Source: a virus
Reading direction: 5' to 3' (one strand)
IMG/VR virus record: IMGVR_UViG_3300035682_001491
Span: 1 to 50,533 of that record
DNA: 50,533 nt
A program made the translations under genes and the position numbers. Position 1 is the first letter of the stretch. Every line of letters starts with the position of its first letter. The notes below the pieces were generated by a model. That model was given only the letters and a program-made list of their open reading frames with translations, made no database searches and was not told where the DNA came from. Below are positions 2,680 to 46,687 of the stretch, in pieces.

Positions 2680-3321
2680 TTAATGAATCCAGTGTTGTGG
2701 AACCATATACTTAAAGCCACTCTTAACTAAGTGTGCTGTATGGTGATATGGAGGCGAAGGAGGGAAAACAATAACGCTTCCTGCCTCTGGCTTTACATAA
2801 AACGTAAAAGAATTGTCTTGAGCTTTTGCAAGATCCATATCAGGGTGAGGTCCACCATTATACATTGGTCCGTCAGGTGATCCGATTGTAAATGAAATCT
2901 CTCCGCCTTCGTAATCATCATTTAAGTACATTACAAAAGAAACCTTTAGTCTTTCATCCCCTTCTTGTTGGTCAAAGTGTGCCCCCATGTATGTTCCTGC
3001 TTGATACTTCTTAATAGGGTACATATCAAAAAGTTTTGGTTCTTCTGTAATACCCTGAGCTTTTGCATAGTCTCTAGCTACAACATCAAAAGCATCTTTT
3101 AAGGTATTGTAGATATAATCATTGTTAGCATCTTTAATTCCCTGAGATTCTGAAGAAGATATGCTTCTATCAGTTCCATACACATAATGCTCCCCGCTGC
3201 ATGCAGCCCATTCGCCCCAGTTTGTTGACTCATCGCCTTCAATTGCAGCCATTAACTTCTTTGGATCTTCAATTACGTTTGTGTAGTAGTAGACCTTTTC
3301 TTCTAGGATGTTTTTATTCAT
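2680..3321 (-). CDS. Fe(II)/2OG oxygenase (prolyl-4-hydroxylase-like) A
   Basis: 213 aa. The double-stranded beta-helix core has the metal pair H115-x-D117 (AHFDQQ), the strand YLNDDYEGGEI, and a distal His (193-197) followed by the 2OG-binding basic residue K204 in SGFKY. Lys replaces the more usual Arg. Such enzymes hydroxylate Pro, Lys or small molecules using O2 and 2-oxoglutarate. GGAGAA upstream fixes the start. First of seven related enzymes in this - strand block. Confidence 0.88.
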   Translation of the reverse strand: MNKNILEEKVYYYTNVIEDPKKLMAAIEGDESTNWGEWAACSGEHYVYGTDRSISSSESQGIKDANNDYIYNTLKDAFDVVARDYAKAQGITEEPKLFDMYPIKKYQAGTYMGAHFDQQEGDERLKVSFVMYLNDDYEGGEISFTIGSPDGPMYNGGPHPDMDLAKAQDNSFTFYVKPEAGSVIVFPPSPPYHHTAHLVKSGFKYMVPQHWIH

Positions 3322-3334
3322 CTGTATTCTCCAT

Positions 3335-3997
3335 TCATGAGTACTTGTTGTCTTGATAAAAGTTTGAAACCTTTACAAATCCTACTATAACATATCTTAT
3401 GGGTCCTTCTCCAACATGCTTAACGCCATGCTCATGCTCTTCATCCCCTGGGAAAAACAGCAAATCTCCTGGTTTTGGCCTCAAAGATATATCAAGATTT
3501 GGAAAGAAAATTTCTCCATCTATATACTCATCGTTTAAATAAATTATAGTGGCATATTTTATTGATGGGTCTGTATGTTGATCTGTGTGAGACTTTAACT
3601 CTACGCCTGGCTGCATTCTTTGAATTGTTGCAAGTCCGCTCAAGTTTAACTCTGGATCACACTGTGTAACTATATCATTAAGCCTATCATAAAATATTTT
3701 TTGTTCTTTATGATTTGTAATATTTAAATTTTTATCAACCCAGTTTTGAGTAATTTCAAATTTGCCTTCAGCAACAAGGTTATCAACATCATCTCTTCCA
3801 AATTTTTCTAAACAAAAAATTTTTAAGTTGCTCATATATTCTACTTCCCAATCTGCTTGGGATGCCCCATCTATTATATTTAGAACAAAATCAAGCTCAT
3901 CTTTGTTTAAGAAGTTTTTTATACAAATTATATTATTTGTAATTTCTTCAAATATAAAGTTGTCTTCTTTAAGTTTTTCCTTAAAGGTTTCAAGCAT
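3335..3997 (-). CDS. Fe(II)/2OG oxygenase B
   Basis: 220 aa from the ATG at 3997, which overlaps the upstream stop by 8 nt; an alternative start lies at 4009. Metal ligands H137-x-D139 (SHTDQH) and H190, with R201 in GPIRY for the 2OG carboxylate. The strand IIYLNDEYIDGEIFFP carries the usual acidic turn. The N-terminal 110 residues are unlike the other copies and may bind the substrate. Confidence 0.87.
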   Translation of the reverse strand: MLETFKEKLKEDNFIFEEITNNIICIKNFLNKDELDFVLNIIDGASQADWEVEYMSNLKIFCLEKFGRDDVDNLVAEGKFEITQNWVDKNLNITNHKEQKIFYDRLNDIVTQCDPELNLSGLATIQRMQPGVELKSHTDQHTDPSIKYATIIYLNDEYIDGEIFFPNLDISLRPKPGDLLFFPGDEEHEHGVKHVGEGPIRYVIVGFVKVSNFYQDNKYS

Positions 3998-4745
3998 TTG
4001 GAATCTCATCAGACTTGTACTTATTTCCGTCCTTGTCTAATTTCCAGCCTTGCTTCAATAGCTCTTGCCACTCTGCTCTTTCAATTTCTTGCTTTGCCCT
4101 AGTTTCTTTCATTTCTGCTGCCCAAGCATCTCTAACTTCTTGAGGGTAAGCATCTTCTTCTCTATCATCCCAAAAAGATCCTATAGTATATCTTACACCA
4201 CTAGTAATAAGAGATACTTCGTGCATATTATTAAATCCTCCGTCAAAAACAGCAAGCATTCCAACCTTTGGTTGAATCTCTATATTTTGATCTGGGAATC
4301 TAAGAAGTCCGCCTTCAAATTCATCATTAAGGTATAAAAATCCAGCATATCTACTTCTTGTAAAAGCACCAGAGTTTCCGTGCTCATCAGTGTTGTCAGA
4401 ATGTACTCTAGCGTATGCTCCTGGCTCCCATTTTTGTGTATGGTATCCAATCTTTGAAATTATTTTTGGGTCAAGATCATGTACTGATGCAATTGCTTCT
4501 GGCATTATTTTTTCAATATCTGAAAAAATTGTTGGTACCAAACCAGCGTCAACAACTTCTTGATCATTGTCTTGTGGTAGCACAGATGAGTATGACTCAT
4601 AAAAAGATATTGGCATCCAAGAAAGCTTGCCATTTTCTGCCTGAGCATCTAAAGCATTAACCATTTTTTGACACTCTTCTTTACTTATAAAGTCTTCATA
4701 AACAACTATGTCTTTTGTTAACCTTACTTTATTATCTAGGTTCAT
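3990..4745 (-). CDS. Fe(II)/2OG oxygenase C
   Basis: 251 aa. Metal ligands H115-x-D117 (RVHSDN) and H175, R185 in TSGVRYTIGSFW, and strand LYLNDEFEGG. A charged helical C-terminal extension of about 60 residues (KETRAKQEIERAEWQELLK) is not part of the catalytic fold and may hold a partner. ATGA overlap with the gene upstream. Confidence 0.88.
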   Translation of the reverse strand: MNLDNKVRLTKDIVVYEDFISKEECQKMVNALDAQAENGKLSWMPISFYESYSSVLPQDNDQEVVDAGLVPTIFSDIEKIMPEAIASVHDLDPKIISKIGYHTQKWEPGAYARVHSDNTDEHGNSGAFTRSRYAGFLYLNDEFEGGLLRFPDQNIEIQPKVGMLAVFDGGFNNMHEVSLITSGVRYTIGSFWDDREEDAYPQEVRDAWAAEMKETRAKQEIERAEWQELLKQGWKLDKDGNKYKSDEIPNA

Positions 4746-5608
4746 TTGATCCTTCTTTCTTTTTCGGCACTGATTTTATTTGGATGATCATCTCTAAACT
4801 TTTGCATAATGTCTGGCTGCATTTCTGCCCAAAGAGCAGACCCAAACTCTTTTTCTTTTTCAAACCATTCGGCATCTCCAGGGGAGTACTTCATCCAGTA
4901 CATTCTTGATAAATACTTATTTGATCCAGTGGCTGGCATTACTCCATGAAGATATACGGACCCATTCTTTTTTAATATATCTGGGTGACCTGATGGGAAC
5001 ACCAAAAAATCTCCCGCCTCTGGCTTATACATGTAGGCTTCTCCATCAACTATAAAGTCAATCTCTCCACCTTCATAGTCATCATTAAAATAGGCAAGTG
5101 CCGTTATTGCAAACTTATATCCTGGACTAACGATAGGCTCTCTAATATAGTCAGAGTGGTATGTCATTGCAACTTCATCCTGAATGTCTGTTCTATACCT
5201 TGCAATTGAAGGGCCAGTCATTCTCCACTCTTTTATGGGCTCTCCGCTATTTGTTAAAACATCTCTTTCTGTGTCAAAATCAACATTGTTTTTAACGGCA
5301 TAGTCTTGTGTTACTAAATAAAAGTTTTTAAATAGTTCTAAAATTGCTAGCTTTTGTTTTTCTTGTTTTTCTGTTTTTGTTTCTATAGCCTCAATATACT
5401 CTATTGAAAGACCGTGTGGATGATTTGCAAAAGTTGGGTTTAGGTATGTACCAAATAGTGACCACTGTGTCCAAGGACTAAACAAGCCATCATCTTCTCC
5501 ATTAGAGTTTTTTAGTTCTGAATATGTTGAATCTATATCTTTAAAAACATTCTTGTATACAAAAATTTGAGGATAGATTTCAATTGGATCTAAAACTTTT
5601 TCTGTCAT
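4742..5608 (-). CDS. Fe(II)/2OG oxygenase D
   Basis: 288 aa from the ATG at 5608, which overlaps the upstream stop (ATGA); a start at 5644 is also open. Metal ligands H151-x-D153 (YHSDY) and H221 (LHGVMPATGS); the anion-binding residue is K231 or R235. The strand YFNDDYEGGEIDF is typical. Longest of the cluster, with an extended N-terminal domain rich in Glu and Lys at about residues 70-90. Confidence 0.87.
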   Translation of the reverse strand: MTEKVLDPIEIYPQIFVYKNVFKDIDSTYSELKNSNGEDDGLFSPWTQWSLFGTYLNPTFANHPHGLSIEYIEAIETKTEKQEKQKLAILELFKNFYLVTQDYAVKNNVDFDTERDVLTNSGEPIKEWRMTGPSIARYRTDIQDEVAMTYHSDYIREPIVSPGYKFAITALAYFNDDYEGGEIDFIVDGEAYMYKPEAGDFLVFPSGHPDILKKNGSVYLHGVMPATGSNKYLSRMYWMKYSPGDAEWFEKEKEFGSALWAEMQPDIMQKFRDDHPNKISAEKERRIK

Positions 5609-6279
5609 GGCTTTCTGTCTCCTGTATGCTCTGTTATTTCCCAAAAGAAAGGACAGGTATATCTAACTCCACTCTTAATTTCTGTTACTCCGTGAATATA
5701 ATTCATATCACCTGGGAAAAAATAAGCAGCGCCTTTCTTGGGCTTAAACTGAACACCTTGTTTTGGGAAGTATAACTCTCCACCTTCATAATCTTCATTC
5801 AAATAAAACAGACTTGACAGATCATAGTTTGGAAAATCGTTTGGAAGTCCAGCATCTGGACCTTCGTGCAGTTCTTTGTCTGCGTGAGGGTTTTGAAACT
5901 GTCCTGGAAGCCATCTAACAATTGTTGTTCCAGTTGGAATAACTCTTACTTTATAAAACTCTTCAACAATTGGCTTTAGTCTTTGAAACAAACCTGCAAT
6001 AATTGGAGCAATAGCTGGATCATTTTTATCTAAAGATGGGCTTGTGCAAACTCTATCTTTCCAATAATCAGAGTCATAGACAACTGTTCCATTTTCATTA
6101 ACATGACTTTCTGTTACATCCCATATAGTTAAAGATTTTGCAGCTTTTTCTAAAAACTCCATCTCTTCTACAGTCATAAAATTTTCCAGCTCAACGATCA
6201 TGTCTTTCCCATCACCAAACCAACCAGAAGGGGTTAAAGATGGCTTTCTAACCACAACAGATGCATTTATATTATCCAT
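5605..6279 (-). CDS. Fe(II)/2OG oxygenase E
   Basis: 224 aa. Metal ligands H132-x-D134 (PHADKE) and H196 (IHGVTEI), R206 in KSGVRY; strand FYLNEDYEGGELYFP. It is first in its transcription unit: an extended -10 ends 6 nt before the ATG and the upstream gene stops 2 bp away. The C-terminus overlaps the next oxygenase start. Closest to animal and algal prolyl-4-hydroxylase domains in motif spacing, by eye. Confidence 0.88.
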   Translation of the reverse strand: MDNINASVVVRKPSLTPSGWFGDGKDMIVELENFMTVEEMEFLEKAAKSLTIWDVTESHVNENGTVVYDSDYWKDRVCTSPSLDKNDPAIAPIIAGLFQRLKPIVEEFYKVRVIPTGTTIVRWLPGQFQNPHADKELHEGPDAGLPNDFPNYDLSSLFYLNEDYEGGELYFPKQGVQFKPKKGAAYFFPGDMNYIHGVTEIKSGVRYTCPFFWEITEHTGDRKP

Positions 6280-6281
6280 AA

Positions 6282-7010
6282 TTAGATTATACCATTTCCT
6301 TTGTTAGTACGACTATCAATCACAGAAAGCCTTAAAGCCTTTACTTCGTGACTACCCAAAGATTCTCCTTTTTCATTTACTGCATCTCTATACCAGTCGG
6401 TCCATGATCCAGAAGAGTTTACAACTTGTGCTGCAGTTCCATAGGAAACATTTGCATCCATTCTTTTTCTATCTTCGTCTTTGTAGTCAAGTATCTCAAT
6501 AGAAGAATTGTTTAGGGTTGATAAAGAAATGGGTATTATTGTTGCCAATGGAGTATGTGCTTTAATTGTTACTTTTTCCCCTGACTTTTTTGCTTTTATT
6601 GCAAGTGGCAAGGGATTATCATAAAAAGATGTACTGATAAGGTTAGACATAGTTTCAAAATCATTGCTAAAAAAGTTTACTGGGTTTATGGTAAGCATGC
6701 TTATGTCTTCAGATGTTCTAAAAACTAATCCCGTGTTTAGGCTTATGGTTGACTGACCTCTTCCACCGTAAGAACCTTCTGGTGCTTTAATTATCTCAAT
6801 ATGATCTTGAGTTTGATCGTTTATGCCATCCCAAACAAACTCTATGTCTTGGTCACAAGAAAGGCTCCAGCCAACCACATTTGATTGTGTTACTGGAAAG
6901 CACCTATATGCGTGACCTTCTGATGTTTCATCCATCCAGTCTCTTTTTATTGACATTGGCAAAATACTAAATGATGAACCATTCATCTTTTCAGCAAATA
7001 TATTTAACAT
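6282..7010 (-). CDS. DUF6065 family protein
   Basis: 242 aa from the ATG at 7010, sharing its A with the upstream stop (TGATG). The N-terminal half matches the DUF6065 pattern as I recall it: a RDWMDET phrase, AYRCFP, GWSLSC, an E-x-x-W-D-G strand, then GLVFRT and NPVN. Function unknown; an all-beta fold is likely. It sits between two 2OG oxygenases, and a second, more diverged relative (7676-8455) also does, so it probably works in the same pathway. Confidence 0.65.
   Translation of the reverse strand: MLNIFAEKMNGSSFSILPMSIKRDWMDETSEGHAYRCFPVTQSNVVGWSLSCDQDIEFVWDGINDQTQDHIEIIKAPEGSYGGRGQSTISLNTGLVFRTSEDISMLTINPVNFFSNDFETMSNLISTSFYDNPLPLAIKAKKSGEKVTIKAHTPLATIIPISLSTLNNSSIEILDYKDEDRKRMDANVSYGTAAQVVNSSGSWTDWYRDAVNEKGESLGSHEVKALRLSVIDSRTNKGNGII
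6286..6294 (-). promoter_or_regulatory. Leaderless promoter inside the oxygenase cluster
   Basis: TGGTATAAT, 6 nt, ATG at 6279. It lies within the 3' end of the DUF6065 gene, so the block 5605-2010 can be transcribed separately from the genes upstream. Confidence 0.65.
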
Positions 7011-7666
7011 CACTCTGCCTCTGGAACGTACATCTCTGGAGTATGAAACTTTTTGTTATAGTCTAACATCGTAACAATTGAATATTTTGTTCCTGATGTT
7101 ACTGGCATTGCTTTATGTGGATACATAAAGTTTGAAGGGAATATATAGAGATCTCCAGCTTTTGGCTTAATCTTTAAGTCTTGTAACCTAAAGTACAATT
7201 CTCCACCTTCGTAATCATCGTTTACATATGACACTAAAGAAACAGTACAGTTATAAGAAAACCCGTGGTCGTGGTGCTCCTGAAAATGTTGACCTGGGCC
7301 ATACTTGATAAAGTTAAAAGCTTCCCAATACTTTAAATCCATAATGTTATAGTCTTTTCTATAGTCTTCAACTGCTGGGGATTGTGCATCATATACATCT
7401 TGCCACAGTGATTGAAGATTTAAAGATGTCTGACTCTTATCTTGCTCAATATCTGTTTTTTTAAATTTAAAGTCATTGCAGTCTCTATATTCTGGCATTA
7501 ACTGTTGGTATCCTACATAGGCAGGAAGCCAACTATATCCAGTTTTATCTCCTACTGGCTTTAAGTTAGACTCTAATCTTCCTATTACGTCAATATCACT
7601 TTTGATTACATCTCTATAGCAAACAATACCGTTGCCTAGATTTTCTTTTGAGCTCCAAGTGTTCAT
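7010..7666 (-). CDS. Fe(II)/2OG oxygenase F
   Basis: 218 aa. The second of two adjacent ATGs (7666) is chosen because AAGGGG lies 5 nt before it and only 2 nt before the first. Metal ligands H131-x-D133 (EHHDHG) and H184 (PHKAMPV), with K194 in TSGTKY. The sequence KYWEAFNFIKYGPGQHF resembles oxygenase G at 8455-9168, and both use Lys at the 2OG site, so F and G form a sub-family. Confidence 0.88.
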   Translation of the reverse strand: MNTWSSKENLGNGIVCYRDVIKSDIDVIGRLESNLKPVGDKTGYSWLPAYVGYQQLMPEYRDCNDFKFKKTDIEQDKSQTSLNLQSLWQDVYDAQSPAVEDYRKDYNIMDLKYWEAFNFIKYGPGQHFQEHHDHGFSYNCTVSLVSYVNDDYEGGELYFRLQDLKIKPKAGDLYIFPSNFMYPHKAMPVTSGTKYSIVTMLDYNKKFHTPEMYVPEAE

Positions 7667-7675
7667 CATTACCCC

Positions 7676-8455
7676 TTATTTATATTCTCTTCTAGTCCAG
7701 ACATGGTTTTTATAAATACCGCCATCTGGTTGACGGTAGAATTTCATGTTATTCATCATTTTATCATAAATTTCTTTGTCTTTTAAAAATTCTAACTTAT
7801 GATCCCAGTTTTCTCTTTTAAAAGGAAGGATCTGCAAGTATGGTGTTCCTGCTGGTATTGTTCCTTCCCAATCTTTTGCTATAAAAAACGGAAATGTTCC
7901 TAATAGATGAACCTTGTCGCTATCTACAATTCCTGTTGTATTCATAAAAGGTAGATCAAATCTATTCATTGGAGTCATAAACAAAGCGCTGTATCCTTCA
8001 GGTAGCTCTATGCCCCATCCTGAGTACCAGGCAAAGTGATCTTTATAAAATCCTTCTGGATGCTCAAACTGAGGCATTGCAAGTCTTCTTGTACAGAAAT
8101 CTTTGTTTTTAGGATCATCAATTTTTACATCTATTGATCCTTCTGGTGTTTTAAAGAATGTAATATCACATGGTGTTTTTAAAACATACCCTGTTGAAAA
8201 ACCATCCATAATTGCTGGGCATGCCTTCCAAGTTGGTATCTTTCCGTAATCATCTGTAGTTCCTTCTTTTGGAAAGGGACACACCTCTTTAGGTGCTTTA
8301 TAGTATTCACCATTAGGCATTTTTGCAAATCTATCTGCATCTTTATACCATTTTGGAATTTCATTTTGTGTTGGAGTCGGAACTGATGGGTTTTCAGAAT
8401 TTACCCAAGATCTATAAGATCTAAATATTGCAGTCTGCGATATTTGTTCAGTCAT
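7676..8455 (-). CDS. DUF6065-like protein
   Basis: 259 aa. An N-terminal W-x-N segment and PKWYKD are followed by TWKACPAIMDG, a GY-x-LKTPCD strand, GWGIELPEGYSALF, MTPMNR and a closing GTPYLQILPFKR. The order resembles the second half of the DUF6065 protein next door. The fold is probably a beta sandwich. No catalytic residues are recognised. TAATG overlap with oxygenase G shows coupling. Confidence 0.6.
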   Translation of the reverse strand: MTEQISQTAIFRSYRSWVNSENPSVPTPTQNEIPKWYKDADRFAKMPNGEYYKAPKEVCPFPKEGTTDDYGKIPTWKACPAIMDGFSTGYVLKTPCDITFFKTPEGSIDVKIDDPKNKDFCTRRLAMPQFEHPEGFYKDHFAWYSGWGIELPEGYSALFMTPMNRFDLPFMNTTGIVDSDKVHLLGTFPFFIAKDWEGTIPAGTPYLQILPFKRENWDHKLEFLKDKEIYDKMMNNMKFYRQPDGGIYKNHVWTRREYK

Positions 8456-9168
8456 TACTTATGACCTATCTCATTTATATCTGTCATAATAACAACACAA
8501 TATTTTGTACCAGACTCCATTGGAAGTGAGGCATGCTCATAAATATAGTTTGATGGAAATACTGCTATGTCTCCAACTCTTGGTTTGTATACCAAGTTAT
8601 CTAGTCTTGGAAACTTTAAATCCCCGCCAACATAGTCATCATTTATATAGATCACAGCAGAAACTGTGCAATTATAAGCAGGCCCATGGTCTGCATGAAT
8701 ATTAAAATGTGTGCCAGCACCTTCATATTTTACAAAGTTAAAAGCTTCGTAATACACTACATTAATGCCCCAATACTGTGCATAATCATCTATACAATAC
8801 TTTAGTTTTTGATAAATTTCTTCATGCAGATCTATTAATTCAGAGTTATACTCATCTCTTGGCCCTAAGTTTTCCTGTTTATATTTAAAGTCTACTGCGT
8901 CCCTTGCTTTTTTAATTGGAACTGTAGAGTTTGTTACTTGTGCTTCTGACCACTTATACTTGGAACCAGTTGACAAATTGGACTCAAGGGTGTTGATATA
9001 TCTTTTTGAATCCTCTAAAGAAAATGTGTTGTGGTACACATGTAGACCTAGCCCTAAATTTTCAACAATAAATCTATTGTCTAGCACTCTTTCGGGCACT
9101 CTGTTTGATGCTGTCTCTGACCTGTCTTTTGTAAACCATGGGTTTTCATTTTCATTGTAGATATCCAT
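8455..9168 (-). CDS. Fe(II)/2OG oxygenase G
   Basis: 237 aa. The ATG at 9168 is chosen over a GTG at 9177 that overlaps the AAAGGGG ribosome site. Metal ligands H158-x-D160 (IHADHG) and H212 (EHASLPM), K222 in ESGTKY; strand YINDDYVGGDLKFP. First gene of the cluster, with a TATAAT box upstream at 9189. Confidence 0.88.
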   Translation of the reverse strand: MDIYNENENPWFTKDRSETASNRVPERVLDNRFIVENLGLGLHVYHNTFSLEDSKRYINTLESNLSTGSKYKWSEAQVTNSTVPIKKARDAVDFKYKQENLGPRDEYNSELIDLHEEIYQKLKYCIDDYAQYWGINVVYYEAFNFVKYEGAGTHFNIHADHGPAYNCTVSAVIYINDDYVGGDLKFPRLDNLVYKPRVGDIAVFPSNYIYEHASLPMESGTKYCVVIMTDINEIGHK

Positions 9169-9188
9169 TGTTACCACCCCTTTATTTT

Positions 9189-9245: not shown

Positions 9246-9488
9246 TTAAGATTCTTTTCCCCATTTTCCAATAGGGCACTCCGCAATTTTAAGTGTCGTC
9301 TTTGCTTTCATAATACATCCACACTGTGTGCATTGAGTTGTTATTTTCATAAAATGATCACAGGACTTACATATTTCAAACCTTTTGTCTATTATTTCTT
9401 TATCTGTTATCCTGGCATCTGAATCTAACAAGTGCCAAGGCCTAGATGAGCCAATATTTTTTTTCCAATTTTCCCACGCCTCAGACAT
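9246..9488 (-). CDS. Cys-rich zinc-binding protein, paralogue of 15139-15336
   Basis: 80 aa. The pattern is C-x2-C-(9-10)-C-x2-C-G-C, then K-x-K-T-T-L and a final C-P-x-x-K-W. The gene at 15139-15336 has the same core with the same spacing. Phages often carry this small family, whose function I do not know; four or more Cys suggest a zinc ribbon. It ends the - strand unit that begins with the genes at 9491-9934. Confidence 0.7.
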   Translation of the reverse strand: MSEAWENWKKNIGSSRPWHLLDSDARITDKEIIDKRFEICKSCDHFMKITTQCTQCGCIMKAKTTLKIAECPIGKWGKES

Positions 9489-9490
9489 TT

Positions 9491-9934
9491 TTAACTATCT
9501 AAATGCTGTGTAAGAACAGTGCCGTCCCAATTAAAGGTTTGTCCAATTGGATTTATTATATCTAGTGTATATTTAACCAAAATTGTTTCCCCCGAAAAAG
9601 CTGCCTCAAACATTTCTGAATCAGGAGAATTTATTTTCATGGTTGCTGAAAAAACTACCTTATCGTCACACAAAAAAACATACCTATTAATAGTATCAAG
9701 ATATTCATTATCTAGCGGTGTTCCTAGATTAATGTTTCCACCAGTAAATGAAGTACCGTCCCACGTTGCTCCTCTTACTGCAGATGTTTTATGTTCTGCT
9801 GCATTCATTCCAGTTATTGGAAGTCCTGTTTCAATTGCTGCATCTAAAACCGTTGTATCGTGTTCAGGACTAAGAATAACTTTTTTAATGCAATCCCAAG
9901 TGTTGTTACTATTTTTTGTTAGTATAGCGTACAT
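9491..9934 (-). CDS. Phage protein, likely virion-associated
   Basis: 147 aa, not recognised. The first 55 residues read as a small alpha/beta domain, then G-rich turns (WDGTSFTGG) and beta strands with a second WDGT near the C-terminus. AAAAGGAG lies ahead of the ATG. The location between the Phe/Pro-repeat fibre and a zinc-ribbon gene suggests a structural role. Confidence 0.55.
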   Translation of the reverse strand: MYAILTKNSNNTWDCIKKVILSPEHDTTVLDAAIETGLPITGMNAAEHKTSAVRGATWDGTSFTGGNINLGTPLDNEYLDTINRYVFLCDDKVVFSATMKINSPDSEMFEAAFSGETILVKYTLDIINPIGQTFNWDGTVLTQHLDS

Positions 9935-9971: not shown

Positions 9972-11081
9972 TTAGTAGTAACATCCACCACATAATGACT
10001 GGCATGTAGAAGAACAGTTCCATGGTGGTGCATAGCAGTTAGCTCCACAGTTAAAGCTTGTAAAGGATGGAGGGAAGAATGGGAAGAACGGTGGGAAGAA
10101 TGGGAAGAACGGGAAGAATGGAGGCGGGAAGTATGGAGGGAAGAAAGGTGGGAAGAACGGTGGGAAGAATGGGAAGAACGGTGGGAAGAATGGGAAGAAC
10201 GGTGGGAAGAATGGTGGGAAGAAAGGAGGGAAGAACGGGAAGAATGGAGGGAAGAACGGTGGGAAGAACGGTGGGAAGAATGGCGGGAAGAAAGGTGGGA
10301 AGAACGGGAAGAACGGTGGGAAGAATGGGAAGAACGGTGGGAAGAATGGTGGGAAGAAAGGAGGGAAGAACGGGAAGAATGGAGGGAAGAATGGCGGGAA
10401 GAAAGGAGGAAAGAATGGTGGGAAGAATGGAGGGAAGAACGGAAAGAATGGGAAGAACGGAGGAAAGAATGGACCAAAAGTAGAAACTACACCATTACTT
10501 GCTGCAGATGCAGGAGATGTTCCATTTGCATTTGTTGCGGTAACGGTATAAGTATAAGTTCCAGCAGTAACTTCTGTAATAGATATTGGTGTTGTTGTAT
10601 TTGTTGCTGTTCTTCCAGAACTTGATGTAGCTGTAAAAACTGTTACTGTTTTATTACCTGTATTATTTGCTGTAAACGGAACAGACACTACACCAGAAGT
10701 TCCTCCAGATGCTGTTCCAATAGTTGGAGCCTGTGGTTTTGCAGTTGGTACAACCGCTCCTGATGCACTAGATGCTCCAGAAGTTCCCATTGCATTTGTT
10801 GCGGTAACAGTAAAAGTATATGATGATGCAGGAGCTGTATTTAGTCCTGAAACAACTATTGGCGATGAAGATCCTGATCCAGTAAGTCCTCCAGGAGAAG
10901 ATGTAACTGTGTAGCTTGTTATTGGAAGTTTACCATCAAAGCTTGGGGCAGTAAAAGTTACAGATACCTGTCCAGCGTTATATGTAAGATTTGTTCCTAC
11001 ATCTGTACCAGTCCCAATTGTTGGTGGTAGCGGTGCTGACTTGCTTTGTGACTCAACAACACCAGGCTTTTTAGGACTCAT
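9972..11081 (-). CDS. Fibronectin-III protein with Phe/Pro repeat tract and Cys-rich tail
   Basis: 369 aa. Two fibronectin-III-like modules (about residues 20-112 and 115-200, each ending TYTVTATNANGTS or similar) are followed by about 135 residues made almost only of FFP and FFPP units (about 204-337), then a 32-residue tail with six Cys (C-x3-C, N-C-x3-C, L-C-x2-C). No signal peptide or membrane segment is obvious outside the F/P tract. Probably a virion fibre or adhesive appendage; the proline-rich tract is a candidate substrate for the encoded hydroxylases. The long reading frames on the opposite strand and in the second - strand frame are by-products of the repeat. Confidence 0.8.
   Translation of the reverse strand: MSPKKPGVVESQSKSAPLPPTIGTGTDVGTNLTYNAGQVSVTFTAPSFDGKLPITSYTVTSSPGGLTGSGSSSPIVVSGLNTAPASSYTFTVTATNAMGTSGASSASGAVVPTAKPQAPTIGTASGGTSGVVSVPFTANNTGNKTVTVFTATSSSGRTATNTTTPISITEVTAGTYTYTVTATNANGTSPASAASNGVVSTFGPFFPPFFPFFPFFPPFFPPFFPPFFPPFFPPFFPFFPPFFPPFFPPFFPFFPPFFPFFPPFFPPFFPPFFPPFFPPFFPFFPPFFPPFFPPFFPFFPPFFPFFPPFFPPFFPPYFPPPFFPFFPFFPPFFPFFPPSFTSFNCGANCYAPPWNCSSTCQSLCGGCYY
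10071..10472. repeat. Minisatellite encoding the FFP/FFPP tract
   Basis: About 400 bp of 9-15 bp units. The + strand is nearly pure purine with T (GGGAAGAAYGG-type units); the mRNA strand is pyrimidine-rich. Variation is mostly in third positions, which keeps F and P, so selection acts on the protein. Such tracts can form triplex or G-rich structures and can change length by slippage. Confidence 0.85.
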
Positions 11082-11122: not shown

Positions 11123-11848
11123 TTACCTAACACTTACATATATAGAGTGAGCTACCATTGAGCATGGGTTATCCGTTAATATTTCTGGATATGCCCCAGA
11201 ATCTTTCATTTTTTCGCTATCAATAAACAAGGTTTGTTCAAGGGATAGGTCATAGTCAAATTGATATTTTAGATTTCCCGCATACCCCACAACTGGATAT
11301 GACCCTGGGCTAAATGTCCTAAAAAGGACCTCTGTGTTATTGCTAAAGGTTGTTATTGTTATATCATAACGAACAGTTATAATTGATCCAACTTTGATAT
11401 TTTTAAAATTAAGTTTTTGTGCTTTTGGGTTATATAGTGCAACATGGTTTTCTGGTAAGTAGTCTTCATTGTTTTTACCCTTGCAGTCTACACTAAATTT
11501 AACCCAACCATCATTACCACAAGCAGCTCCAAGCTGAATACTGTTTTTATTTAAATTTGAATAATGTGCCCAACCATGTTTTTGTCCAGATAAAGATAGA
11601 ACGCTTTCTCCAGGTATGCCATCTATGCCGTTCTTTCCGTCTTTTCCAGGCTTTCCAGGATCTCCTTTAGGTCCTTGCTTGCCTTCTGGCCCCTGCAGGC
11701 CCTGTAGACCGTTATCTCCTTTTGGTCCACGTTCTCCTTGAGGTCCAGGTACAGCTATAAAAGAAACTGGCTGCTCAAGTTGATAGTTATTGTTTATTGT
11801 TTCAGAATATTTTTTTGGACTGCCTGGAAAATCCATGCTCTTTGCCAT
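11123..11848 (-). CDS. Collagen-like phage fibre protein
   Basis: 241 aa. Residues 35-81 are about 15 uninterrupted Gly-X-Y triplets (GPQ GER GPK GDN and so on to GIP), enough for a short triple helix. A C-terminal domain of about 155 residues, rich in beta strand, probably trimerises. In the Y position there are three Pro (GDP, GKP, GIP) and two Lys (GPK), the residues that collagen hydroxylases modify in animals. Probably a virion appendage. It starts 7 nt after a 28-aa gene in the same operon. Confidence 0.85.
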   Translation of the reverse strand: MAKSMDFPGSPKKYSETINNNYQLEQPVSFIAVPGPQGERGPKGDNGLQGLQGPEGKQGPKGDPGKPGKDGKNGIDGIPGESVLSLSGQKHGWAHYSNLNKNSIQLGAACGNDGWVKFSVDCKGKNNEDYLPENHVALYNPKAQKLNFKNIKVGSIITVRYDITITTFSNNTEVLFRTFSPGSYPVVGYAGNLKYQFDYDLSLEQTLFIDSEKMKDSGAYPEILTDNPCSMVAHSIYVSVR

Positions 11849-14536: not shown

Positions 14537-15142
14537 ATGCATGATGAATTAAAAAATACTTTAATAGGTGGTTTGCTAGGAAAGCTGGCAATCCATCATT
14601 CGGTATATCGTTTACCGTGTACAAGTGAATATCTAGAAGAACTTGTATCTGATGTGCTAAACGAAAACGGTATGCCAAATGACTGGAAGCCTGATAGAAG
14701 TCATAGCGTCAGTATAGACATGACTTTAGAGTCAGGTGAGAGTATATCCGTCAAGTCAGGAAGATATGATCCAGATAAGGCTACATTGGTTATATCTGGG
14801 TCTAGGCTAGGCAAACACGAGACATTGGAGAAGATGGTAGAGTCTGTTGCTTCTACACATGCTGATTACTATGTGTGTTTAGCCAAAGCAGACCAGGATT
14901 GGTCTCATATCCCGTCAAAAAATGAGATCAAGACATATCACCTATTTGTATTTGAAGCATCCAAATTAGATTATGGTTTTGAACATTGGTCAAGAAAAGA
15001 ATCTAAGCATGGAAAAGGTTATAAATATGTAATGGATATACCAGGTATGTCAGCTACTATACGTCCTACTATGTCTCATCAGTTGTGGACTACTGTATCT
15101 TGTGATATCATTGGTATACCGACAAAATTGGAGATACTGTGA
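14537..15142 (+). CDS. Hypothetical protein, possibly restriction-endonuclease-like
   Basis: 201 aa. The segment SVSIDMTL-ESGESISVKSG (D61 and K73) followed by ATLVISGSRLGKH resembles the core strands of PD-(D/E)XK nucleases, but the usual acidic residue two before the Lys is Ser, so catalysis is not assured. It could be a degraded or variant nuclease, or an unrelated fold. First gene of a five-gene + strand unit that ends with oxygenase H. Confidence 0.45.
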   Translation: MHDELKNTLIGGLLGKLAIHHSVYRLPCTSEYLEELVSDVLNENGMPNDWKPDRSHSVSIDMTLESGESISVKSGRYDPDKATLVISGSRLGKHETLEKMVESVASTHADYYVCLAKADQDWSHIPSKNEIKTYHLFVFEASKLDYGFEHWSRKESKHGKGYKYVMDIPGMSATIRPTMSHQLWTTVSCDIIGIPTKLEIL

Positions 15143-15336
15143 GCGACGATGTTCGTCCTTGGGATCTAATTAATGGATCACCTAGGAGCCCTGAAGAGCT
15201 TTCAGAATACCGTTTAGAAATATGTAGAAGCTGTGAATTCTTTCGTAAAAGAACTCAAACTTGTAGACAGTGTGGGTGCTTTATGAAACTTAAAACGACA
15301 CTAGAACACGCTAGCTGTCCAGAAAAGAAATGGTGA
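15139..15336 (+). CDS. Cys-rich zinc-binding protein, paralogue of 9246-9488
   Basis: 65 aa from a GTG that overlaps the previous stop (GTGA). Shares EICRSC, then CRQCGCFMKLKTTL and CPEKKW with the protein at 9246-9488. Six Cys suggest one zinc ribbon. Function unknown. Confidence 0.7.
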   Translation: MSDDVRPWDLINGSPRSPEELSEYRLEICRSCEFFRKRTQTCRQCGCFMKLKTTLEHASCPEKKW

Positions 15337-23203: not shown

Positions 23204-24220
23204 ATGGCACATGAACTAGAATCACAAAATGGTAAAGTTTCATTCGCATCATTTCGTGAACCTGCTTGGCATGGATTGGGTACCGTATTCACAGAAGAAA
23301 AGAACACAGCAGAAATGTTAGAGGCTGCAAGCCTTAACAACTGGAATGTTCGTCTGGAAGATTTGGAAACCCCATCACATTTAACAAGCGACAAAAACTA
23401 TCAGTACGTATTGCGTACTAACCCAACAGACAATTCACAGACAGACATTCTTGGTGTCGTAGGTGAGCGTTACCATGTTATGCAGAATGAAGATTTATTT
23501 TCATTTGGTGATAACATTCTAGATGGTGGTGGACGATGGGAAACCGCTGGCTCAATTCGTGGAGGGCGTGTAGTATTTGGCGCACTTGCATTAGAGCGTG
23601 AAACAATTCTTGACCCTAACGGCGTTGCAGATAAGGTAAAGACTTATTTGCTCATCAACACATCACATGATGGCTCAATCGCTATTCAAGCAAGCATTAC
23701 ACCTGTTCGTGTTGTGTGCGCTAATACTCTTAATCTTGCATTGAACACAACTAAGAAAAAGAATGGCATCAAGCAATCATTCAAGATTCGTCATACACAG
23801 ACTGCATCTGGCAAGGTTGCGATTGCACGCCAGACACTAGGTATGGCTAACTCTTACATGGATTCATTTGACATCATGGCTAAGGCTATGATTGAAAAAG
23901 AAATCAATGCTAAGCAATTTAACGACATCATTCTTGCTGCATACCCTCAGCCTGATAAGGACACTAAGGGCGCATTGAAGAAGTGGGAAAACAAGGTTGA
24001 TGTTATCAATGACATTTACACAGGCGAGTTTAACGGAATGATTGCTGGTAATGCGTGGGGTGCTTTCAATGCACTTACAGAACGCCTTGACTGGTACCGT
24101 TCTGCACGTGGTGGCAATAACGAATCAATCCTTGCATCTGCAAGTGGTTTTGACCCTGCTATCAATGCAGAAAAAAATCGTTTGTTAAAAGTTGTACAGA
24201 ATACTTTGCAACTAGTGTGA
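23204..24220 (+). CDS. DUF932 phage/plasmid-like protein
   Basis: 338 aa, full length. Starts MAHELESQNGKVSFASFREPAWHGLG, typical of the DUF932/TIGR03299 family, with later GGRVVFGALAL and VVCANTLN. This family is found on phages and plasmids and is expressed early, but its activity is not known. AAGGAG precedes the ATG. Single gene between a TGTCA promoter and 3' hairpin copy 5. Confidence 0.85.
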   Translation: MAHELESQNGKVSFASFREPAWHGLGTVFTEEKNTAEMLEAASLNNWNVRLEDLETPSHLTSDKNYQYVLRTNPTDNSQTDILGVVGERYHVMQNEDLFSFGDNILDGGGRWETAGSIRGGRVVFGALALERETILDPNGVADKVKTYLLINTSHDGSIAIQASITPVRVVCANTLNLALNTTKKKNGIKQSFKIRHTQTASGKVAIARQTLGMANSYMDSFDIMAKAMIEKEINAKQFNDIILAAYPQPDKDTKGALKKWENKVDVINDIYTGEFNGMIAGNAWGAFNALTERLDWYRSARGGNNESILASASGFDPAINAEKNRLLKVVQNTLQLV

Positions 24221-29253: not shown

Positions 29254-30378
29254 TTAAAGACGATTGATCTGCTTATTGACGAACTCTAAAAATTTGCCCG
29301 TAATAAGTGCGAAACCTAATTCAGGCTTTGCACTGACGCATGCTGGACTTACTATATACTTTGCCCATTCCTTTACAGCTTCCTTGTTCTTGCCTGCTGT
29401 ATCTGCTAGAAGGTAGGATACGATGCCTAGAGGGTATGCCCCAGGCTCTTTGGTGGAATAGTCATAGGTAAGTATGTTATTTGAGTCAATAGAGGCTTCT
29501 CCAAGGAATGCTGAGACATTTGCGCTGTTTGGCTCAACGAAGTTACCAGATGCATTACCTATATTTACTACCTTTAAGTTAAAGAACTTAGCAAAGGAAA
29601 CTTCTGCATAAGTAATAGAGTACTTAGTCTTTGATGCAAGTGTTGCTACACCTTGTGACTGGTTTGCTCCAACAATTCTTCCCATGTTACCAATGTCATT
29701 TATATTCTTTGGAAATGATGTTGAGAATGAGTCAGACACTGGCTTTGTCCAAACCTCTGGTAGTGATGCCTTCATGTATCTAACAAAGTTATTTGTTGTT
29801 CCAGAGTTATCAAGTCTAAACACCACCTTGATCTTTTGATTGGGAAGTGTATATACAATACTCTTGGTTGCTATTCTTAATACTACTGGGTTGCCATACT
29901 TGTCTTTAACTAGATTACCAGACTTATCTTTTCTGTAAATAACTTCTTTAATCTTTCTATTGTTATCAGCTTTAATAGCAGGATCATTCCACATTGTTAT
30001 GTCCCCTGCAAAAATCTTAGCAATAGTGGTTGATGATAGATAAACCTGTCTGTTACCTGGAAGGTTATGCATTACAGCAATAGGTGCTGCAACAACTGGT
30101 ATGTGTATGATGGATGGCTTCTTAGTTGCTGCAGTGTGTGCTGAATCGGAGAACCAGAAATCACCAATGCCCTTGTCTGATGATGTCTTGCCAGCCCCAG
30201 AGCCATTTGGAGAGTATGTAACTACATTACCTGTTGACTTGGCATAAGATGATCTGCATTCGTCAATAAGGTTTGCTGGAAAAGATGCTCCATTACCAAC
30301 AATATTTTCTGCTGCAAAAGCAGGGGTAGAAATAGATAGAGCAGCAACGACTGCTATTACGATAAGTTTAAGTCTCAT
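29254..30378 (-). CDS. pstS: Phosphate-binding protein PstS
   Basis: 374 aa. Signal peptide of 22 residues ending S-T-P-A-F-A. Residues that bind phosphate in PstS are recognisable: GNGASFPA, SGAGKTS with the P-loop-like turn, DFWFSDSA and RLDNSGTTNNF. Takes up periplasmic phosphate in hosts; phage copies are a known auxiliary metabolic gene. There is no lipobox Cys after the signal, so this copy should be released rather than anchored. An extra insert at about residues 145-165 (YRKDKSGNLVKDKYGNPV) is present. Confidence 0.88.
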   Translation of the reverse strand: MRLKLIVIAVVAALSISTPAFAAENIVGNGASFPANLIDECRSSYAKSTGNVVTYSPNGSGAGKTSSDKGIGDFWFSDSAHTAATKKPSIIHIPVVAAPIAVMHNLPGNRQVYLSSTTIAKIFAGDITMWNDPAIKADNNRKIKEVIYRKDKSGNLVKDKYGNPVVLRIATKSIVYTLPNQKIKVVFRLDNSGTTNNFVRYMKASLPEVWTKPVSDSFSTSFPKNINDIGNMGRIVGANQSQGVATLASKTKYSITYAEVSFAKFFNLKVVNIGNASGNFVEPNSANVSAFLGEASIDSNNILTYDYSTKEPGAYPLGIVSYLLADTAGKNKEAVKEWAKYIVSPACVSAKPELGFALITGKFLEFVNKQINRL

Positions 30379-36981: not shown

Positions 36982-37557
36982 ATGGGGTATCCAAATTGGT
37001 TTAATATAAGTGCCGTTAAATATTTTGATTTAATCTTACCACGCAGGTTTGCAGGTAAACCACTCATAGACTTTCTACAGATAGGTGCGTACACTGGTGA
37101 TGCTAGTGAATGGATGTTAGATAATATACTTACAGATCCAACTTCATGGCTTACTGATGTTGATACCTGGTCTGGGTCTGAAGAAGAAGCACACAAGAAA
37201 TTTGACTGGAATGAACTTGAACAGTTTTATGATAGCAGAATGTCTGCTTATACAAATGTATGTAAAGTTAAAGGGTACTCTGAAGAGTTCCTTAATACCG
37301 CTGAGAAATCACACTATGATTTTATATACATAGATGGCGATCATACTGCACATGGAGTATATACAGATGCAATACTTGGCTGGGATAAGCTAAAAATTAA
37401 TGGGATAATGGCATTTGATGACTACCTATGGCAACATGATACATACCAGGAACACCTTAGACCTAAGCCAGGAATAGATAGGTTTTTACAAGAGCATAGT
37501 GGTAAATATCAGATACTGATTATGGATGAGCAAGTTTGGATATTAAAGCATGAGTAA
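36982..37557 (+). CDS. Methyltransferase (Methyltransf_24-like)
   Basis: 191 aa. FLQIGAYTGDASEW is motif I, TDVDTW the acidic strand, FIYIDGDHTAHG and GIMAFDDYLW the later motifs. Likely acts on a sugar or surface polymer. Ends 8 bp inside the start of the GT25 gene, so the two are made together. Confidence 0.78.
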   Translation: MGYPNWFNISAVKYFDLILPRRFAGKPLIDFLQIGAYTGDASEWMLDNILTDPTSWLTDVDTWSGSEEEAHKKFDWNELEQFYDSRMSAYTNVCKVKGYSEEFLNTAEKSHYDFIYIDGDHTAHGVYTDAILGWDKLKINGIMAFDDYLWQHDTYQEHLRPKPGIDRFLQEHSGKYQILIMDEQVWILKHE

Positions 37558-39025
37558 GCTTAAAGGGTTTGGGCCAGCGTATGTTATAAATCTTAAAGAC
37601 CACACTCATAGATTAAAGAATGTAGAGGATCAGTTTAATAAGTACGGAGTAACTGATTATACTATTATTGAAGCAGTTGATGGTAGGAAAAGCGATCTTT
37701 CTGATCAAATATCTGGAAAGTATCCTAAGTTAAAACCATCAGAAATTGGATGCATGATATCTCATATTAAAACTATAAAGCATTGGCTTGATACTTCTGA
37801 TAGTGATTATGCAATTATAATGGAGGATGACTTTAGTTTTGATACAGTTGAGCATTGGTCATGGGATTGGCAATATGTAATAAATAATCTACCAAAAAGG
37901 TGGGATATTGTACAACTAATAATGATTAAGAATGAGCCAGTTAAATTTAGTCTTCATAAAAAAGAAAAGTATAACGTTAATACAAGAGGCTCGTATGAGT
38001 GGTCAACTGCATGCTATATTATTAATAGAAAATATGCAGAGTCATTTATTAAAGATCATACGATAGAAGATAAATATGTTCTTAAAAATTATGGATTGAA
38101 AAATCAAGCAGCAGATGTTATTTTGTATAACCTTGGTGAAGCATATTCTATGCCACTATTTACACATATACTAGATCCAAAAAATTCAATAAATAAAAAT
38201 CATGAAGACTTTCATTTAAAGTCTAGCAACTATATAAATAAATGGTGGGCAAAGAATGGTAAACTTTATCCCAAAGAACAATTTTTTAATATTAATGAAG
38301 GCCTCAATAATAAGGTTGGAAAACCAAATATTTGTTTTAAGATATTTCATAACGAAGAAGATACTCCTATGATGGAAAAAAGAAATATACTAACTAAGCG
38401 TGCTATCACACAACTGGAAAAAGATTTTGATAACTTTGATACGCCAACAATAATGATTAAAAACACAGACGACATAAAATCTTTTTATAAAAATGCACAA
38501 ATAAAGGTTGATCCAAAAGGATGGCTAGGTGAAGGTTGGAAGCCTGGAGAGCTTGGAATTTGGGCAAGTAACTATACGGCATGGAAAAACTTTTCTGAAT
38601 CTAGTTATGACCATATTATATTAATGGAAGATGATATACAACTTTCAAAAGACTTTAGTGAAAAACTATATGAGTACATAGACGAACTTCCAGAGGACTG
38701 GGATGTATTCACAGTTTATGTTCCTCCAACTGGCAACGTAAGATACAAGAAAGATGGAAAGCATCTGGACATTGGAAAGAAAAATGTATGTAAGGTTTAT
38801 CAATCATGGTCATGCTTATGCTATGTTGTAAGCAAGGATGGTGCTAAAAAATTAACTGAAATGGTAAAAACTCCAGTATCAAGACCAATTGATCACTATC
38901 TATTTTATAATGAAGATATAAATGTTTATGCTATAAAATACAATAGAGCTAATATTTGTAATATATATTCAACAACATCAACTGTTCAGCATACAAAAAA
39001 ACAAGATATGACAGGATATCTTTAA
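37550..39025 (+). CDS. Tandem GT25-family glycosyltransferase
   Basis: 491 aa with two GT25-like domains. Domain 1: AYVINLKDHTHRLKNV, IGCMISH, metal-binding MEDDF (E92-D94). Domain 2 (from about 255): GELGIWASNYTAWK, LMEDD (360-362), PEDWDVFT. GT25 includes LPS glycosyltransferases and animal collagen galactosyltransferases that act on hydroxylysine. The tandem arrangement resembles the latter. Acceptor here unknown. Confidence 0.82.
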   Translation: MSKLKGFGPAYVINLKDHTHRLKNVEDQFNKYGVTDYTIIEAVDGRKSDLSDQISGKYPKLKPSEIGCMISHIKTIKHWLDTSDSDYAIIMEDDFSFDTVEHWSWDWQYVINNLPKRWDIVQLIMIKNEPVKFSLHKKEKYNVNTRGSYEWSTACYIINRKYAESFIKDHTIEDKYVLKNYGLKNQAADVILYNLGEAYSMPLFTHILDPKNSINKNHEDFHLKSSNYINKWWAKNGKLYPKEQFFNINEGLNNKVGKPNICFKIFHNEEDTPMMEKRNILTKRAITQLEKDFDNFDTPTIMIKNTDDIKSFYKNAQIKVDPKGWLGEGWKPGELGIWASNYTAWKNFSESSYDHIILMEDDIQLSKDFSEKLYEYIDELPEDWDVFTVYVPPTGNVRYKKDGKHLDIGKKNVCKVYQSWSCLCYVVSKDGAKKLTEMVKTPVSRPIDHYLFYNEDINVYAIKYNRANICNIYSTTSTVQHTKKQDMTGYL

Positions 39026-43549: not shown

Positions 43550-44608
43550 TTATTTTTCAGTAAAGCCTATTTTTGCTTTAGCAGCCATCAAGGACTCTTT
43601 ATCTGGAGCCCCCCAATAACCTAAATATTCACCACTAAATATTTCCTTATATATTTTTTCAGAATCAGCATGCATTCTACCTTGATAGTCTGAGCCAGAT
43701 TGATTAATATTTTTGTTCATTCTCCAATTCCATTCTGGATCTATAAAATCATTATTTTTATCGCTGGGAAGAGTTTGTTCGTGATACTTATTTAATGTTA
43801 AAAGAAGGGGATGCTTTATGGCAAAAATTTTATATCCTCTAGACAAAAGCCTTAATCCATGATTAATTTGATCTCCATTGAAAAAATCTGATGGGTCGTG
43901 CATAACTTCCCTTATAGTGCTATATTTAAAAAATACCAATGAGGCATGTATACAATTTACTTCTTCATACTCCTCGGACTCAAAAATATGTGTTCCATAT
44001 GTGATTGGTAAACCAACATTATATTCGGAAAAATGTTTTCCTTGCCAACCATCAAACCTAATCTCTGGCTTTGTATTATGATAGTCTATTAATTCATGAT
44101 ATTTATTGTTGTAAGGATCTATCTTGTTTTTACCGTCTGTTGATAGTGCAGTATCTGTAGAAAACATTGTGTCTCTATCTTTTGTATCATAGTATAGGTT
44201 TCCTCTTGGGATTGCAGTTAAAACCAATCTATCAGTTTTAGCATGGTCAACAATTTTTTCAAAATTCTCTATAAGCTTTAAGTCCCAATCTTTTGTGAAT
44301 ACTGTGTGTGCATCTATTTGCAAAACATAATCATGTTTACGTGTGGATAAAAGAGATGCGTTCATTCTTCCAAAACCAGTTCCCATAGGTGATGGTGTGA
44401 ATATCTCAGCATAGAATATGTTTGAATTATTTGTAAAAAAATCATTGTCTAATAGTGAGTGCTCTTTTGTTAATATGTTGTTAAATACACCAAAGAATAT
44501 TCTATCTGGTTTATTGGCCATCAGCATTGCACTTTTAATTGTTTGCTCAAGAAAGTATTCTTCACATGATGCCATTGTAACAAAAATTGTATTTTCTATA
44601 TTATTCAT
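43550..44608 (-). CDS. GT60-like (PF11397-type) GlcNAc transferase
   Basis: 352 aa. Landmarks of the family: IFVTMASCEEYFLEQTIKSA at the N-terminus, LQIDAHTVF (97-101 with D, H) for the sugar-nucleotide and metal, and SLVFFKYSTIREV later. This family includes the enzyme that adds GlcNAc to 4-hydroxyproline of Skp1 in Dictyostelium. With many prolyl-hydroxylase-like genes in this genome, hydroxyproline is a plausible acceptor. Last gene of the operon that starts near 47965. Confidence 0.72.
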   Translation of the reverse strand: MNNIENTIFVTMASCEEYFLEQTIKSAMLMANKPDRIFFGVFNNILTKEHSLLDNDFFTNNSNIFYAEIFTPSPMGTGFGRMNASLLSTRKHDYVLQIDAHTVFTKDWDLKLIENFEKIVDHAKTDRLVLTAIPRGNLYYDTKDRDTMFSTDTALSTDGKNKIDPYNNKYHELIDYHNTKPEIRFDGWQGKHFSEYNVGLPITYGTHIFESEEYEEVNCIHASLVFFKYSTIREVMHDPSDFFNGDQINHGLRLLSRGYKIFAIKHPLLLTLNKYHEQTLPSDKNNDFIDPEWNWRMNKNINQSGSDYQGRMHADSEKIYKEIFSGEYLGYWGAPDKESLMAAKAKIGFTEK

Positions 44609-46595: not shown

Positions 46596-46687
46596 GCTGG
46601 CCACTCCATATTGTTAGGTCCTTTACTAATTGAGTTCCAAATTTTAGATACCCATTTCTTTACGTTTTTGCGTAGCCGAAATAGCAT
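46592..46687 (-). CDS. 31-aa basic overlapping miniprotein
   Basis: Starts inside the last 44 nt of the APS-kinase gene in another frame and ends ATGA-overlapped with DUF2061. Basic, Trp-containing (MLFRLRKNVKKWVSKIW...GPNNMEWPA). It joins the two genes with no gap, which argues for a real gene. Confidence 0.45.
   Translation of the reverse strand: MLFRLRKNVKKWVSKIWNSISKGPNNMEWPA

Follow-up and report, generated by a model that had tools for sequence, protein, structure and literature searches.

The window analysed here is the whole stretch of 50,533 nucleotides that makes up IMG/VR record IMGVR_UViG_3300035682_001491 (positions 1 to 50,533). The gene under study lies on its minus strand, starts with ATG and encodes a protein of 369 amino acids with the following layout.

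9972..11081, minus strand: protein of 369 aa with Fn3 domains, a Phe/Pro tract and a Cys tail (ORF analysis, Pfam, AF2, Foldseek)
10470..11021, minus strand: two Fn3-like domains, residues 21-204 (Pfam fn3 for domain 1, AF2, Foldseek)
10068..10469, minus strand: FFP/FFPP tract of 134 residues (codon and unit analysis)
9975..10067, minus strand: C-terminal tail of 31 residues with six Cys, an exchangeable tip (DNA comparison with loci L003, L005 and L006)

The approximately 20 residues before the Fn3 domains correspond to the N-terminal motif of the relatives, which reads ..KKxGxxSxxxNDFLxP.. in N-terminal alignments. Residues 35-105, in domain 1, match Pfam fn3 (PF00041; E 3e-6, 27.8 bits vs a curated cut-off of 25), and AF2 folds residues ~21-203 into two beta domains with block pLDDT values mostly between 80 and 98. 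Sequence search of the PDB with the window protein gave no match below E 0.06; with the AF2 model, Foldseek ranks tandem Fn3 pairs first among PDB structures, the alignment covering ~200 residues (E 1e-9). An earlier note on this DNA, made from the letters alone, had called the protein an Fn3 fibre, and the domain match together with the tandem fold bears this out. Structure prediction, which the same note had proposed as a check, was informative for the two Fn3-like domains but returned the tract and the tail at low confidence (about 50 or below for the tail).

The tract (residues 205-338) was described in the earlier note as approximately 135 residues of Phe and Pro, and the count agrees: there are 134 residues, i.e. 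71 Phe, 62 Pro and a single Tyr, none of them charged. FFPP is found elsewhere only once in 523,498 residues of the other ORFs of these loci, so the tract is far above chance. Gly is absent, i.e. the collagen pattern of Gly at every third residue does not occur. Departures from the commonest base occur at 35 out of 134 third codon positions vs 1 out of 268 first and second positions (Fisher 2e-17), the sole exception being the Tyr codon. The third-position variation claimed previously is therefore genuine for the Pro codons (CCA 30, CCG 17, CCT 15) but not for the Phe codons, which are nearly all TTC (68 out of 71, with three TTT), and selection at the amino-acid level is upheld since the changes fall on synonymous Pro third positions. 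The neighbouring genes have a Phe codon ratio of TTT 103 : TTC 20, and about nine in ten Phe codons in the pooled tracts of the relatives are TTC. This bias may reflect the avoidance of T runs or may be a trace of duplication-driven expansion.

The tract is encoded by many IMG/VR contigs, and a census gave 160 distinct FFP proteins. The earlier note had named the lack of the tract in most relatives as a refutation, and this is not what is observed. Searches that ignored the tract, with the Fn3 N-terminus as query, gave 129 distinct relatives, 76 of which are Pro-rich (FFP or GFFAPP), and most of the others have a different aromatic repeat at the same place. A class survey, conducted via a neighbouring gene and by searches with the Fn3 N-terminus alone, showed the same for relatives without FFP: behind the same Fn3 domains they mostly hold another aromatic repeat, such as GFFAPP, (FGA)n, FGFSPFGVFGFSPF, FGFTPF, HFPPFFPP or an Asn/Tyr-rich YNF sequence, FGFSP being one of the classes. 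Judged from these repeats, the conserved property is an aromatic, uncharged and periodic sequence rather than Phe-Pro itself.

A WhiB gene is found in the window record, and 12 out of the 20 long family records have one. PMC10202952 describes WhiB as exclusive to Actinobacteriota and as a marker of actinophages, and the WhiB genes suggest that the hosts of these phages are probably actinobacterial. A conserved window gene (23204-24220) is about 52% identical to its nearest named relatives, which are from Streptomyces phages. A cellular source of the tract was considered and rejected, as its DNA pattern is missing from all 395 sampled actinobacterial-class genomes; three genome contigs match the Fn3 part only, and the tract pattern is lacking in those genomes. 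Several proteins were searched against 50,697 named phage records and no relative of the window protein was found, the tract being blocked by the low-complexity filter, and a DNA search with positions 1-25000 of the window against the same records gave no cultured relative. Within the limits of this collection the lineage appears to be uncultured. A search for Gp23, as a test for T4-like phages, matched none of 35 records, and its control was also silent. Among open-licence papers we found none on a protein that joins Fn3 domains to an aromatic tract, or on an enzyme array of this kind.

The tail behind the tract contains exactly six Cys, as had been noted before, at residues 345, 349, 356, 360, 364 and 367, and has no Pfam match at E values up to 5. 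Six Cys in so short a segment (residues 345-367) would fit a cystine-knot peptide, and the tail may be knot-like as the earlier note proposed. It is conspicuous that the tails vary in type: the 160 proteins include 59 tails with at least four Cys, 53 short ones with fewer, 15 that are intein/Hint-like, 14 other long ones, 10 with an S74-like S-S/D-x-R-F/L-K motif and 9 that are truncated. Of 364 protein pairs whose N-termini share 75% identity or more, 223 have tails that are less than 40% identical. The same is seen at the DNA level, where the window and L003, L005 and L006 are 73-81% identical as far as the tract and once more beyond position ~9160, with no similarity over most of ~10063-9160, a region that comprises the tail and the two genes after it. 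In other words, comparison of these sequences demonstrates that the C-terminal tips swap between phages. These next two genes are the following.

9491..9934, minus strand: first partner of Cys-rich tails (cluster 7), a protein of 147 aa whose gene adjoins 31 out of 53 Cys-rich tails and 0 out of 74 others
9246..9488, minus strand: DUF6171 CxxC protein (Pfam), the second partner (cluster 6), adjoining 25 out of 53 Cys-rich tails and 1 out of 74 others

At least one of the two adjoins 47 out of 53 Cys-rich tails vs 1 out of 74 other tails. The association holds in a phylogenetic control with 12 independent pairs, of which about 10.7 agree and none disagrees (p about 0.001). The 147-aa protein has a confident predicted fold (pLDDT 90) that matches nothing in the PDB below E 0.6, and in BFVD two proteins of uncultured phages. 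We infer that the 147-aa and DUF6171 proteins assist in assembling their particular tip and are passed on together with it.

A number of minor features concern the tails. A second DUF6171 CxxC copy is found in the window at 15139-15336, on the strand opposite to 9246-9488. Some phages have two FFP-tract proteins, the tails of which differ in several cases (L045, L048, L053, L054, L061, L070, L107, L120, L123 and L157 are the loci concerned). Intein/Hint-like C-terminal domains, often ending in His-Asn, follow the aromatic tract in some relatives (L023, L040, L101, L139, L140, L168, L222, L274 and others); the intein splicing profile PF14890 matches relatives' tails with E values of 2e-5 and 4e-3, neither of which attains the curated cut-off, and reaches ...HN near the end. 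In L026, L071, L150 and L369 there is a motif like that of the S74 chaperone (SSxRFK / SDYRLK), with the stop codon within approximately 25-45 residues, so that the remainder of an S74 domain is missing. A diversity-generating retroelement is an unlikely source of variation, since a search for reverse transcriptase (RVT_1) found none in 23 virus records, the control being positive in 3 out of 14 known genomes.

Downstream of the tip-associated genes, the window has an array in which seven PF13640 oxygenases are interspersed with two genes of DUF6065 type, and a collagen-like gene is located just upstream of the tract gene.

8455..9168, minus strand: 2OG-Fe(II) oxygenase, HAD...H...K, ORF may start at 9177 (PF13640, alignment)
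7676..8455, minus strand: DUF6065-related protein, phrog_7084 (PHROG E 2e-33; clusters with DUF6065)
7010..7669, minus strand: 2OG-Fe(II) oxygenase, HHD...H...K (PF13640 E 2e-15, alignment)
6282..7010, minus strand: DUF6065 protein (PF19541 E 3e-26)
5605..6279, minus strand: 2OG-Fe(II) oxygenase, HAD...H...R (PF13640, alignment)
4742..5608, minus strand: 2OG-Fe(II) oxygenase homologue with RTD in place of HxD, ORF may start at 5644 (PF13640, alignment)
3990..4745, minus strand: 2OG-Fe(II) oxygenase, HSD...H...R (PF13640, alignment)
3335..4009, minus strand: 2OG-Fe(II) oxygenase, HTD...H...R (PF13640, alignment)
2680..3321, minus strand: 2OG-Fe(II) oxygenase, HFD...H...K (PF13640, alignment)
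11123..11848, minus strand: collagen-like tail-fibre protein immediately upstream, which is not a general feature of the family (PF01391 E 4e-10, phrog_5073)

The metal and 2OG site HxD...H...K/R is complete in six of the seven copies; the copy at 4742-5608 lacks the first metal-binding His. Compared with solved structures, the array profile is closest to bacterial prolyl 4-hydroxylase (3itq/5hv0, E 4e-13), followed by P3H1 (E 3e-11) and then by PKHD hydroxylases and collagen P4H, with 5c5t at E 3e-7. By these profile matches the enzymes are prolyl-4-hydroxylase-like, with a predicted activity on peptidyl proline. The DUF6065-type genes (6282-7010 and 7676-8455) accompany oxygenase arrays and are seen at FGA loci too. 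DUF6065 has no PDB match below E 0.4; related proteins occur in viruses of haloarchaea, and the one in HF1 is encoded close to genes for minor virion and baseplate proteins. As for the other neighbouring genes, an ORF upstream in the relatives matches minor tail or tail fibre families (phrog_8780, E 2e-32), the collagen-like gene also matches tail fibre families, and a third neighbour has a weak match to a baseplate wedge tail fibre connector; these neighbours argue for a tail-region placement of the tract gene.

In a first sample, in which some loci overlap, an oxygenase was found downstream of 133 out of the 139 tract genes with sufficient flanking sequence and upstream of 3 out of 77. Among the 129 distinct loci, at least three oxygenases lie within 7 kb downstream at 68 out of 76 Pro-rich loci vs 0 out of 44 Pro-poor loci; the remaining 8 Pro-rich loci have fewer than three adjacent ones. 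In this tract-agnostic set, the number of Pro residues in the tract and the number of enzymes are correlated (Spearman 0.84). The FGA loci have no oxygenase (10 out of 10), the FGFSP loci have a median of one, and both GFFAPP and FFP loci have a median of six. When the oxygenases are divided at 45% identity, three large subfamilies are common to FFP and GFFAPP loci, and the others are FFP-only, GFFAPP-only or FGFSP-only, i.e. they split by tract class. Pro-rich tracts are thus linked to the oxygenase array and matched with it by class.

The FGFSP loci have instead an unassigned family, in about two copies each, in which His, Asp and Arg residues are invariant (HDH...H...R; for example L317:9661-10356 and L347:12679-13326), which does not occur at FGA loci and has no match in Pfam, PHROG or the PDB. 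From its residue pattern it could be another oxygenase, and since the FGFSP loci carry this family of their own instead, reading the enzyme number as a simple response to Pro dose may be an oversimplification. The oxygenase HMM was trained on FFP neighbours, and an independent Pfam model served as a control. According to this control the FGA phages do have PF13640 genes, usually in parts of the genome away from the tract gene, which means that Pro-rich phages are not alone in having this family; the YNF phage record has no PF13640 oxygenase. A tree of the Fn3 part supports three to five independent tract switches (p 0.06 to 0.5); the supported pairs go in the same direction or show no difference, and none goes in the opposite one. 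As the independent transitions are few, shared descent as a block may also account for the link.

The reading we favour, with about even confidence, is that the protein is a modular tail-region adhesin and that the array of oxygenases hydroxylates the prolines of its Pro-rich stalk. The conserved N-terminus of approximately 20 residues and the two Fn3 domains would form the anchor, and the aromatic repeat tract an extended, uncharged and sticky stalk. Recombination at the tract, for which the repetitive sequence may supply the homology, would exchange the tip, here Cys-rich, along with its partner genes. The protein would be part of the virion and its tip would bind the host. In the Pro-rich versions, the downstream 2OG-Fe(II) oxygenases would hydroxylate the tract prolines during or after synthesis. 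Hydroxylation is known to alter the conformation and stability of poly-Pro and collagen; in the Phe/Pro stalk it could alter stiffness and solubility, giving a less sticky or stiffer chain, or could create sites for further modification. A broader suggestion, which we put forward tentatively, is that these proteins may constitute a new class of tail biopolymer, with several types of aromatic stalk, each matured by cognate enzymes, and swappable tips with partner genes; the Pro-rich stalks would be hydroxylated at numerous positions by a multi-enzyme array dedicated to them.

The chief alternative accepts the tail adhesin with its repeat stalk and swappable tip but assigns the oxygenases to something else, be it the metabolism of 2OG or nitrogen, a DNA or small-molecule substrate, or a different structural protein, the tail block being simply co-inherited. 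We consider this unlikely, though it has several points in its favour: the weak phylogenetic independence of the tract-array link, the PF13640 genes elsewhere in the FGA phage genomes, and the precedent of the cultured T4-like cyanophages, for whose 2OG-Fe(II) oxygenases PMC3037559 proposes an action via 2-oxoglutarate and nitrogen signalling. Against it, most Pro-rich loci have five to eight distinct paralogues directly downstream and the matching position is without oxygenases in all FGA loci. Moreover, the subfamilies track the tract class, the nearest solved structures are protein prolyl hydroxylases, and a metabolic use of 2OG needs neither adjacency to a tail gene nor several specialised paralogues.

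The hydroxylases could also be directed at the collagen-like neighbour (11123-11848), as in the case of eukaryotic collagen or the chlorovirus prolyl 4-hydroxylase. In the window this gene is adjacent and has Gly-X-Y repeats with Pro, and the array does resemble collagen P4H. However, 65 out of 69 loci with an oxygenase array have no collagen-like ORF, so collagen is not the general substrate, whereas 68 have a Pro-rich aromatic tract, and we regard this possibility as improbable. More improbable still is the suggestion of the earlier note that the tract may be a hydrophobic rod that enters a membrane, here that of the host. A stretch of 134 uncharged residues, 53% of them Phe, speaks for this idea, but the hydropathy is moderate (mean 0.73, best 19-residue window 0.95), a Pro at each third or fourth residue disfavours a membrane helix, and the tract swaps for other aromatic repeats in the same slot (FGA, FGFSP, Asn/Tyr-rich). 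Finally, a functionless simple-sequence expansion is hardly credible even though the tract DNA repeats in tandem, at periods of 12, 21, 45 and 135 bases, and its other reading frames are also open, because the variation is limited as described above and the same reading is kept in some 160 different proteins, the N-termini of which have diverged.

The adhesin with an enzymatically modified stalk can be compared with several known systems. Fibres of the T4 gp37/gp38 and Mu S/U type have swappable tips and dedicated chaperones. The proteins described here resemble them in having a constant shaft, an exchangeable tip and an adjoining tip-specific partner gene, but differ in that the stalk is an aromatic low-complexity repeat, the tip is a short Cys-rich peptide and the partner has an unmatched fold. 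Long uncharged stretches with regularly spaced Phe are typical of FG-repeat nucleoporins and silk-like aromatic low-complexity proteins. The FGA and FGFSP tract classes resemble FG repeats in composition, a resemblance that we do not take as homology; unlike the nucleoporins, the phage protein has an Fn3 anchor, and FG motifs are absent from the FFP class.

Virus-encoded prolyl 4-hydroxylase has a precedent in the chlorovirus PBCV-1, which has such an enzyme as well as hydroxyproline-containing viral proteins (Eriksson et al. 1999, as cited in PMC9301287); the section of this recent survey dealing with the enzyme calls its viral use cryptic. As in PBCV-1, the enzymes here are prolyl-4-hydroxylase-like and viral proteins are the proposed targets. 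The account of PBCV-1 given there is of a single enzyme in an algal virus, unlike the five to eight paralogues beside one tail-region gene of a phage, whose product has an aromatic tract. Like the T4-like cyanophages, the present phages have several PF13640-type enzymes per genome, recognisable by tblastn; the passages of PMC3037559 on the cyanophage enzymes name no substrate and describe no link with a repeat protein. The cultured Nanopelagicales phages E7 and F5 are actinophages with WhiB, as those studied here probably are too, and they have a hypervariable island of tail-fibre and collagen-like genes that is thought to govern host recognition (PMC10202952, in its part on these phages); an Fn3-aromatic tract or an oxygenase array is not reported in that part.

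The 2OG-Fe(II) oxygenase clusters of aquatic phages have so far been without a demonstrated substrate. In these phages most such enzymes adjoin one tail-region gene, the Pro content of which tracks the enzyme number. If the tract is the substrate, phage oxygenase arrays gain a role, phages would produce hydroxyproline-rich virion proteins on a large scale, and a new aromatic repeat material would become accessible. The swappable tips may in addition help to set the host range of these phages, for which the searched collection contains no cultured relative.

Two glycosyltransferases are also encoded in the window (43550-44608 and 37550-39025; PF11397 and GT25). PF11397 includes the Skp1 hydroxyproline GlcNAc transferase, and GT25 is the collagen glycosyltransferase family. 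Glycosylation of hydroxyproline by the PF11397 enzyme was set aside as a general step, since the gene is present in only 3 out of 20 related records. The window further encodes a PstS-like phosphate-binding protein (29254-30378) and an APS-kinase/cytidylyltransferase-like protein (46644-47405).
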